IMG/VR virus record: IMGVR_UViG_3300027974_000186
Coordinates: 1-21,414 of that record
Length of the DNA stretch: 21,414 nt
Source: a virus
Strand: one strand, 5' to 3'
Shown: one piece after another, positions 11,645 through 13,344 of the stretch
Layout: the number at the start of each line of letters is the position of its first letter
How positions within the stretch are numbered: the stretch's first letter is position 1
Made by a program: the position numbers and the translations under genes
Notes under the pieces: model-generated
Seen by the model: the letters and a program-made list of their open reading frames with translations, nothing else
Databases searched by the model: none
Told to the model about the DNA's origin: nothing

Positions 11645-12343
11645 TTAACGGTAACGGAGAATAATTTCTTTACACATTGCGGATCTAACAATATCGTCAA
11701 TACCAAACTCGACGATACCAATCTTATCCACATCATAAAGCCGATCAACTGCATCAGCAAGACCAGACAAACCTCGAATGTCGGTCTGCGCAATGTCACC
11801 ATCAATGATTACTTTGCAGTCATCACCAATCCGTGACAAAAACAAAGCCATTTGTGACACGGTACAATTTTGCGCTTCATCTAAAATACACAGACTGTTC
11901 TGGAACGTACTACCACGCATGAACTCCAGAGGCTTCATTTGGATCTGTCCGCGCTTAAGCAGTAGGTCAGTATAAGATTTCCCCAAACGCTCCTCTAACA
12001 CGCTAATAAGCGGCTCCATGTACGGCAAATACTTCTCAGCCAGCGTGCCTGGAAGAAATCCAAAACCTTTGCTTGATGCTTCAACGTTCGGACGCGTCAG
12101 TATCACACTGTCGATTAGCTTTTCTTCGAGTAGCTCGGCTGCGTAAGACGCGGCTATGTACGTCTTTCCCGTTCCTGCCGGACCGACAGCAAAAGTAATA
12201 ACGTTTGCACGAATAGCATTGATGTATTGTTGCTGTGCTTTGTTTAATGCACGCAACTGGGATTTCTTTGGTGTTGTTGTTACTTCTTGTACAAACTTTT
12301 GTGCGCGTCGATCTTTGCGCTTAAGTTTCTTTTCAAAATCCAT
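11645..12343 (-). CDS. phoH: PhoH-like ATPase
   Basis: This encodes 232 aa with AAGGA 6 nt before the ATG. PhoH proteins are P-loop ATPases, found in bacteria and in many phages, whose phage role is not settled (RNA-related and phosphate-starvation roles have been proposed). The Walker A is 'GPAGTGKT' (54-61). 'ILTRPNVEASSKGFGFLPGTLAEKYLPYMEPL' and Walker B 'ILDEAQNC' (153-160) followed by 'VIIDGDIAQTDI' are hallmark PhoH segments. It is the first head-direction gene after the non-coding structured region and lies directly upstream of terS. Confidence 0.92.
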   Translation of the reverse strand: MDFEKKLKRKDRRAQKFVQEVTTTPKKSQLRALNKAQQQYINAIRANVITFAVGPAGTGKTYIAASYAAELLEEKLIDSVILTRPNVEASSKGFGFLPGTLAEKYLPYMEPLISVLEERLGKSYTDLLLKRGQIQMKPLEFMRGSTFQNSLCILDEAQNCTVSQMALFLSRIGDDCKVIIDGDIAQTDIRGLSGLADAVDRLYDVDKIGIVEFGIDDIVRSAMCKEIILRYR

Positions 12344-12445
12344 GTAAGATCCTTGATATGGTAAGACATCACGCTAGGTAATTGACTGCTTTCCGCCTAG
12401 CGCAATTAAAATGAAAACCGAAAAATGAACACGATAGCTTATCAG

Positions 12446-12631
12446 ACTATCACTAAAAGCACTGTTTACTACCCCATGACAATCAGTTACATTCTGCCCT
12501 ATGTCATTAGTAAACTACCGTTACCGGTAATCTTAACCCGTGTGGATCGTGTAGCTAGTACGATTTATCCACTTTAAAGGCTGCAAGGTTGCGAATTGCG
12601 GTACGCGACAAGCAATGCTTTTAGTGATAGT
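12446..12631. repeat. 16-bp inverted repeat closing a 154-nt domain
   Basis: ACTATCACTAAAAGCA (12446-12461) is the exact reverse complement of 12616-12631. The intervening 154 nt hold at least two further hairpins (12464-12515 and 12542-12572). In an RNA this would be a closing helix of a multibranch domain. GTTACCGGT occurs at 12520-12528 and again at 12630-12638. Confidence 0.8.
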
Positions 12632-12742
12632 TACCGGTGCTGATCTCCGGCTTAGTGTTATTTGGTGGTGTACTTTCAACCACTCCCAAGTTTCCTATTT
12701 GCACCGACGTGCCATTACCGCTGCGTATCAGCCTACGCATTA

Positions 12743-12845
12743 ACTATCAAGTCATAACAGGTGAGGACTTACACCATAGAGCGTCAGTTGTCATTGTACC
12801 AATGACCGCGACCACCTTAGAGCCAGTCTGTTATGACTTGATAGT
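12743..12845. repeat. 18-bp perfect inverted repeat with internal hairpin
   Basis: ACTATCAAGTCATAACAG (12743-12760) is the exact reverse complement of 12828-12845. The 67-nt interior includes the 7-bp hairpin GTCATTG-TAC-CAATGAC (12790-12806), flanked by GCG (12781-12783) and CGC (12807-12809), which can extend it across a 6-nt bulge. There is no poly-T after either arm, so this is not a simple terminator. Confidence 0.85.
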
Positions 12846-12930
12846 GCTTGTCTTTCCAAGCTGTCACCACCCAAGCCAGCTATTGATAAATCGCCAAAAA
12901 TAAAAATACTGGTTTGTGGTGGACATAAAC

Positions 12931-13089
12931 TTATTCATCGTCTTCGGGATGCTCTGGTGCTACTTTTTGAGCAATCATACTATCTGCAATAATATATGCA
13001 AGATTTGAAACGCTTTCATACGCCACACCAGATCCTCTTGCCAAAAGTCCTTCCATCGCGTGTGCCGCAAAAATATCTCTTAGATCCAT
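12931..13089 (-). CDS. Small 'LRDIFAAHAM' phage protein
   Basis: This encodes 52 aa (MDLRDIFAAHAMEGLLARGS...NLAYIIADSMIAQKVAPEHPEDDE). A GGGGA motif lies 9 nt before the ATG. The pattern 'M.LRD.FAA.AM.GL(L/I)A ... AY.IAD.M(L/I)' is one I recognise from small helical proteins in many tailed phages, function unknown. It is two short amphipathic helices plus an acidic tail, without a membrane segment. It is the first gene after the promoter, leader and terminator at 13103-13218, and it precedes the structured RNA region. Its leader position makes it a possible regulated leader gene. Confidence 0.7.
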   Translation of the reverse strand: MDLRDIFAAHAMEGLLARGSGVAYESVSNLAYIIADSMIAQKVAPEHPEDDE

Positions 13090-13102
13090 TATCTTTCCCC
13101 AT

Positions 13103-13172
13103 AAAAAAAAGCCTTATAAAATTTCCATCGAAAGAGAGCGAGAATTGGCTCATGGAAATAAAAAAGGCTTTT
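13103..13172 (-). terminator. Candidate Rho-independent terminator (stem B)
   Basis: AAAAGCCTT (13172-13164) pairs with AAGGCTTTT (13115-13107), and an inner 8-bp stem ATTTCCAT/ATGGAAAT (13159-13152 with 13128-13121) continues it. The minus-strand 3' arm ends in a run of eight Ts (13110-13103). The stem is low in GC, so it may terminate only partly. The plus-strand reading also ends in a short T-rich run (13169-13176), so it could act in both directions. Confidence 0.5.
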
Positions 13173-13199
13173 GTTTAAATTCTCGTTCATCGGCTTTCG
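13103..13199 (-). promoter_or_regulatory. Candidate attenuator leader with two competing stems
   Basis: In minus-strand order the leader reads CGAAAG (13199-13194), CGAGAATT (13185-13178), AAAAGCCTT (13172-13164), ATTTCCAT (13159-13152), AATTCTCG (13146-13139), CTTTCG (13134-13129), ATGGAAAT (13128-13121), AAGGCTTTT (13115-13107), TTTT (13106-13103). Stem A pairs the first two with AATTCTCG and CTTTCG. Stem B pairs AAAAGCCTT and ATTTCCAT with ATGGAAAT and AAGGCTTTT and is followed by a U-run. The stems interleave with only 5-nt, 5-nt and 0-nt connectors, too short to form both fully at once, so they should compete. A would be an antiterminator and B a terminator. This sits between an extended -10 promoter and the 52-aa gene. 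Confidence 0.55.
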
Positions 13200-13218: not shown

Positions 13219-13247
13219 CAACTAAAAACATACGAGCCACTATACAT

Positions 13248-13277
13248 ATATACACTGTTATAAATAACAGTGTATAT
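13248..13277. repeat. 14-bp-arm palindrome, operator candidate
   Basis: ATATACACTGTTAT (13248-13261) and ATAACAGTGTATAT (13264-13277) are perfect reverse complements separated by AA. It lies 30 bp upstream of the extended -10 of the leftward promoter, so it is well placed for a dimeric activator or repressor. A stem-loop is less likely because the loop is only 2 nt and no T-run follows. Confidence 0.7.
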
Positions 13278-13344
13278 GTATGTATACTATTAGGCTGACC
13301 ATATACAGTATACAAATGTATATGTATGTATATGTATGTATACT
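13272..13344. repeat. AT-rich short repeats (iteron-like)
   Basis: GTATATGTATGTATACT occurs at 13272-13288 and again at 13328-13344. A shorter copy (GTATATGTATGTATA) at 13318-13332 overlaps the second. TATG/TATAC units continue between them. The repeats lie directly after the primase/helicase gene and next to the palindrome at 13248-13277. They could be binding sites for a regulator or part of a replication origin, or simply low-complexity slippage sequence. Confidence 0.6.

Follow-up and report, generated by a model that had tools for sequence, protein, structure and literature searches.

A gene-free gap in a virus contig holds a string of structured RNA modules, one of them from a widespread phage RNA family with a tRNA-like layout

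The gene-free gap at positions 12344–12930 of a virus contig is well supported as a structured noncoding RNA of the minus strand, built of modules in the order H-A-B-C(-D). Module B belongs to a tRNA-shaped RNA family whose reality and wide spread in phages are also well supported. This strongly conserved RNA occurs across hundreds of phages, well-studied ones such as P1 and HK620 among them, and a close copy is present in 852 of 5,426 complete Escherichia coli genomes (about one in six), yet Rfam 15 does not list it and the records examined carry no annotation for it. Searches of the open-access literature, subscription papers lying outside their scope, found no published description of it. 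The covariance model presented here, R1, provides a means of finding the family, STnc100 and PasD are placed in a wider superfamily with a tRNA-like layout, and the function of B is directly testable in laboratory phages.

The record analysed, referred to as the window, is a virus contig of 21,414 bases. The gap is bordered by phoH (11645–12343, minus strand) and by an open reading frame of 52 amino acids (12931–13089, minus strand), beyond which, further upstream, lies a primase-helicase gene. Between the small reading frame and the primase are found a long, terminator-like inverted repeat, AAGCCTTATAAAATTTCCAT...ATGGAAATAAAAAAGGCTT (13101–13180), and an AT-rich near-perfect palindrome, ATACACTGTTATAAATAACAGTGTAT (13245–13280). 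A promoter scan around the gap gave nothing above chance.

The stretch 12372–12861 folds with −147.9 kcal/mol on the plus and −163.6 kcal/mol on the minus strand (z of −5.9 and −5.7), and no shuffle equals the native sequence on either strand: the original prediction that these ∼490 nucleotides are unusually structured is thus borne out. The gap is almost certainly a real structured RNA. A coding role was rejected on the pairing evidence: plus-strand reading frames of 50 and 88 amino acids overlap the gap, but homologues preserve base pairs through double substitutions. Rfam searches of the gap returned no family at the gathering threshold and nothing convincing up to E 10, and on this ground every Rfam family, GOLLD and ROOL included, was rejected as its identity. 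At least eight complementary pairs, including arms of 16 and 18 bp, had been listed in the gap. The long arms proved genuine: on the minus strand, ACTATCAAGTCATAACAG (12845–12828) pairs with CTGTTATGACTTGATAGT (12760–12743) over 18 bp, and a second long arm closes 12631–12446. The listed helices cannot all coexist, because the closing stem of module B shares positions with both of the longest arms. The idea of one large structured noncoding RNA is supported, by homologues and by covariation, in so far as it concerns structure; the monolith gives way to a string of exchangeable modules. These are as follows, with the evidence in brackets where it is specific to the feature.

12846–12861, minus strand: module H, hairpin GCUUG-GAAAGA-CAAGC with a conserved loop (first of the array in relatives)
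12743–12845, minus strand: module A, an 18-bp outer arm (12845–12828 with 12760–12743) around further hairpins
12626–12748, minus strand: module B, the tRNA-shaped core (covariance model R1, 67.5 bits, E 5.7e-17)
12742–12748, minus strand: 5' arm of the B closing stem P1, GAUAGUU, acceptor-like (comparison of copies, R1)
12723–12738, minus strand: B hairpin P2, GCGU-AGGCUGAU-ACGC, D-arm-like (comparison of copies, R1)
12652–12722, minus strand: B variable domain, 71 nt (comparison of copies)
12633–12651, minus strand: B hairpin P3, GCCGG-AGAUCAGCA-CCGGU, T-arm-like, directly abutting P1
12626–12632, minus strand: 3' arm of the B closing stem P1, AACUAUC (comparison of copies, R1)
12446–12631, minus strand: module C, ∼186 nt, a long closing arm and inner hairpins including CGU-ACUAGCUAC-ACG
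12372–12402, minus strand: module D, hairpin CGCUAGG-CGGAAAGCAGUCAAUUA-CCUAGCG, before phoH

The B family emerged from a sensitive blastn search of phage records, which gave short, independent matches in P1, mEp460, AH02, IME207, SA002 and CASP1; the majority fall near minus 12663–12630. At least 119 viral contigs contain one 19-mer, GCCGGAGATCAGCACCGGT, without mismatch, against a chance estimate of less than one, and in the aligned flanks of its matches the layout is constant while the sequence changes. Three relaxed pattern scans raised the collection to at least 254 distinct copies, 195 of which carry unrelated inserts. These scans fixed both loops, required the P2 and P3 stems and left P1 free; the constancy of the loops and of P2 and P3 is therefore imposed by the search patterns and is not evidence. 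Copies reside in a range of phages that includes P1, HK620, Bas80 and Magnus; a single enterobacterial copy alone has matches in 113 phage records. Phage P1 harbours two B copies and one intermediate copy, and Magnus two B copies. The copies in E. coli genomes coincide with no annotated feature among the matches listed. The pattern is rare in bacteria, occurring in 18 of 84,980 species genomes and, within one class, in 3 of 274 genomes: this rarity led to the rejection of a host gene family and identifies B as phage-borne.

The secondary structure shown by the copies consists of a closing stem of 7 bp (P1), the linker AAU, a 4-bp P2 hairpin with an 8-nt loop (GNNN-AGGCUGAU-NNNC), a hypervariable insert of 6–154 nt, a 5-bp P3 hairpin (GCCGG-AGAUCAGCA-CCGGY) and, with no gap, the 3' arm of P1. 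Across the 195 copies with unrelated inserts, P1 pairs 1–7 are formed in 98, 98, 98, 99, 99, 96 and 89%, and pairs 8–10 in only 66, 46 and 29%. R1, built from 70 B copies with the window and its nearest relatives left out, matches the window with 67.5 bits (E 5.7e-17). Compensating base changes in homologues, which the original prediction had proposed as a check, are seen in both B and C. In a B set required to have at least six of the seven P1 pairs, 99.0% of cells are paired, 13 of 16 pairs show double changes, all seven closing-stem pairs covary, and the covariation score is 0.454, compared with 0.141 ± 0.008 for shuffled and at most 0.097 for slid alignments. Independently of B, module C shows changes on both sides at 18 of 57 pairs with 97.9% of cells paired, in 14 sequences fetched by C's own motif, and its covariation score was reached by none of 500 shuffles.

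The RNA strand is well supported as the minus. Several G-U pairs had been taken to favour the plus strand, and this did not hold up: in homologues, read on the minus strand, P1 displays 31 G.U cells versus 12 A.C, and C displays 105 versus 6. The P1 count is the fairer figure, since the minus strand was also the one used to work out the structure of C, and P1 pairs were not selected for when copies were gathered. The genes flanking the gap also lie on the minus strand. The excess of G.U over A.C on one strand is a mark of RNA and, together with the transcription of the related STnc100, makes it scarcely plausible that the gap is a DNA-level element serving cassette recombination or single-stranded DNA folding, with transcription irrelevant, even though phages do exchange the modules as cassettes.

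This shuffling is shown by relatives of the window. The phoH-gap-primase synteny is preserved in contigs that include L502, L503, L512, L513, L522, L524, L527 and L528, and the H-A-B-C order is found both in syntenic contigs and in the unrelated L497, L511, L521 and L529. Across these contigs A is exchanged, B is present, altered or absent, and terminators lie between modules; the syntenic L513 is devoid of A and B. Module H retains one loop upon compensating stems (GCTT/AAGC, GCC/GGC, GCT/AGC, GCTC/GAGC, GATT/AATC), and D likewise has a conserved loop with stems CTAGG/CCTAG or CTGGG/CCCAG. The A slot is filled by unrelated modules, some of which bear a tRNA T-arm. In 56 of 192 copies a hairpin of at least 8 bp reaches up to P1 or stops just short of it, compared with 6 of 192 shuffled and 5 of 142 control stretches; in the same comparison no comparable hairpin was found downstream of B. 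In L193, L263, L294 and L308 a recurrent motif, GATGCGGAYGAGTAC...CCGCGAAAGCGGCCCCCTGCATC, lies near B and is probably a further structured module.

In the window lineage all modules end in ACUAUCA or UGAUAGU. Owing to these common arms, B cannot close when the outer arms of A and C are paired, and vice versa. The minimum-free-energy fold of the window prefers the A and C arms and opens the B closing stem, whereas the family-wide evidence requires the B stem. The RNA of this lineage may switch between A/C-closed and B-closed states. Such alternative pairings, the terminators between modules and the presence of B in late and early operon leaders, upstream of holin and N genes, would suit a cis-acting leader RNA that alters RNA polymerase or the processing of its own transcript, by antitermination of the HK022 put kind, by attenuation through the exclusive arms or as a processing signal between cassettes. 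This role is improbable: the put layout is different (∼70 nt, two stem-loops; PMC9378689), the next gene is opposite in 65 of 227 copies, and a hypervariable insert would be odd in a polymerase-binding element.

The P2-loop GCUGAU and the P3-loop AUCAGC are complementary over 6 nt, and the two loops probably pair with each other. In variant scans, P3-loop variants at A99 are G in eight of nine copies, preserving a U.G pair, and in L484 the A99G change is accompanied by a partner changed to C, the single true loop-loop compensation. Variants at U97 are mostly C with the partner unchanged, and in at least 20 copies U97C disrupts the pair with no compensating change. It is the G.U-compatible variants and the one compensation, set against the uncompensated U97C, that leave the contact at probable; something else besides pairing may also hold the loops constant. 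The complementary, invariant loops could equally pair in trans, between molecules of a self-assembling cage or oligomer of the GOLLD/ROOL type, whose tRNA-adjacent habit B shares. With no Rfam match, no common secondary structure found and a core of only ∼60 nt without the insert, this reading is very unlikely.

The likeliest working explanation, advanced tentatively and at somewhat less than even confidence, is that B acts in trans, as a tRNA-shaped scaffold that displays a variable insert specific to its target. The gap RNA would be made on the minus strand as part of a phage operon transcript, and the contact between the P2 and P3 loops, which is partly supported, would lock B into a compact, L-like, tRNA-shaped scaffold. 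The scaffold would stabilize the RNA and allow its excision from the long transcript, and the insert would confer specificity, most likely by base pairing with phage or host RNAs, in the manner proposed for STnc100 and PasD. Counted for the scaffold are the match of the window to the independent R1 model, the pairing of stem P1, the covariation of B and C, the 254 distinct copies collected and their 195 unrelated inserts, the layout in common with STnc100, the intermediate of phage P1 matched weakly by both models, the transcription of the STnc100/PasD relatives, the position of B copies in leaders (holin, N, and between pR' and tR' in HK620) and the co-directional downstream gene in 162 of 227 copies. 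Against it are counted the uncompensated U97C, the opening of the B stem in the minimum-free-energy fold and the absence of A and B from L513; moreover, the inserts have no evident common seed. Only 28 of 250 copies are followed within 150 nt by a simple terminator, making B unlike a classic Hfq-dependent small RNA.

The genomic surroundings of B also bear on a second choice, possible although unlikely: a tRNA mimic or decoy, the scaffold of which would bind tRNA-handling proteins (tRNA-cutting defence nucleases, RNase P, processing or modifying enzymes), titrating or protecting them during infection, with the insert standing in for the anticodon arm. B has the connectivity of a tRNA: its 7-bp P1 and short linker lead to a 4-bp arm capped by 8 nt, and its 5-bp arm runs directly into the closing stem; the acceptor, D stem and contiguous T stem are thus matched at 7, 4 and 5 bp. 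CCA follows P1 after 1–2 nt in 57 of 252 copies (∼7 per position elsewhere), a real T-arm motif lies just upstream of B in 22 of 254 copies versus 2 of 188 controls, and a tRNA gene, nearly always co-directional, is located within 600 nt in 29 of 254. Phage tRNAs counter tRNA-targeting defence (PMC10264068, PMC11555353). Among 147 downstream genes are up to 18 holin matches, 4 N peptides, 3 N4 gp49/Sf6 gp66 and 2 Tad2-like genes, the last adding an anti-defence neighbour. On the other side, B has no canonical T-loop, D-loop or anticodon arm, is called neither by the Rfam tRNA model (RF00005) nor by ARAGORN, carries an insert of a length unlike an anticodon arm, and in the majority of copies is not beside a tRNA. 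As separate observations, Tad2-like (anti-Thoeris) and N4 gp49/Sf6 gp66 genes follow B RNAs as cassettes at several loci, for instance in L077 (7809–8075), and in the window lineage a common terminator, CCACC...GGTGGTTTTTT, ends these cassettes.

A broader and speculative proposal, of low probability, is that in Proteobacteria phages the tRNA-shaped modules (H, A, B, C) form a combinatorial system, linked through common complementary arms. Each array would be a switchable multi-domain RNA, and its variable domains would be traded as the phages compete with host defences that target tRNAs. If true, phage counter-defence RNAs would gain a new class.

Among known RNAs, the nearest family to B is STnc100 (RF02076), together with its relative PasD, both of them prophage small RNAs of Gammaproteobacteria. 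STnc100 is located on Stx phages and is transcribed in EHEC, as shown by northern blot (PMC5331693), and mRNA pairing has been proposed for it without proof; PasD, which came to light through Hfq RIL-seq, is abundant and was validated by northern blot (PMC13192938). Side-by-side comparison and a structural scan revealed in B the STnc100 layout of a 7-bp closing stem with ..GGUG-AAU, P2, a variable middle and a P3 abutting the stem. Both families occur in prophage late regions and in phages P1 (weakly) and Magnus. The loops are different: UGUGCGGA in P2 and AGGCA in P3 of STnc100, with a 4-nt complement GUGC/GCAC, as opposed to AGGCUGAU and AGAUCAGCA in B. The window has no RF02076 match at the gathering cut-off of 47 bits; RF02076 misses the B copies tested and R1 misses the STnc100 copies tested, so B is a sister family and not a member. 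The copy at 1598–1718 of phage P1 (L004) is an intermediate between the two, detected weakly by both models (RF02076 33.9 bits, below the cut-off; R1 16.6 bits). This unannotated STnc100-like RNA makes a row of three with two B RNAs, beside tRNA-Asn and tRNA-Thr.

With tRNA itself B shares the order and lengths of the stems and a P3 abutting the closing stem, but differs in its 9-nt P3 loop, its 3-nt linker and the lack of a fixed anticodon arm. The T4 species 1 and 2 RNAs (rnaC, rnaD) are stable phage RNAs within a tRNA cluster. In T4 (L394, 1409–1547, minus strand) rnaC terminates in a canonical T-arm, ACCGGGTTCGAATCCCGG, and species 1 RNA accordingly looks partly tRNA-like; these RNAs have a canonical T-loop in place of AGAUCAGCA, and membership in B was rejected, as the whole T4 genome has no R1 match. 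The putRNA of HK022 is likewise a structured RNA of phage operon leaders, but its tandem stem-loops lack a closing stem that encloses both, and identity with B was rejected on layout. HK022 (L387) also contains at 33583–33690 a weak R1 match (19.7 bits, E 0.004), which may be a B copy in decay. Finally, GOLLD and ROOL, which the original prediction had cited as known phage-associated RNAs of similar size, were not found by the Rfam search, and the RNA of the window, modular and smaller, matches neither in sequence or structure; the comparison survives in their habitat, as B copies too are borne by phages and often lie near phage tRNAs.
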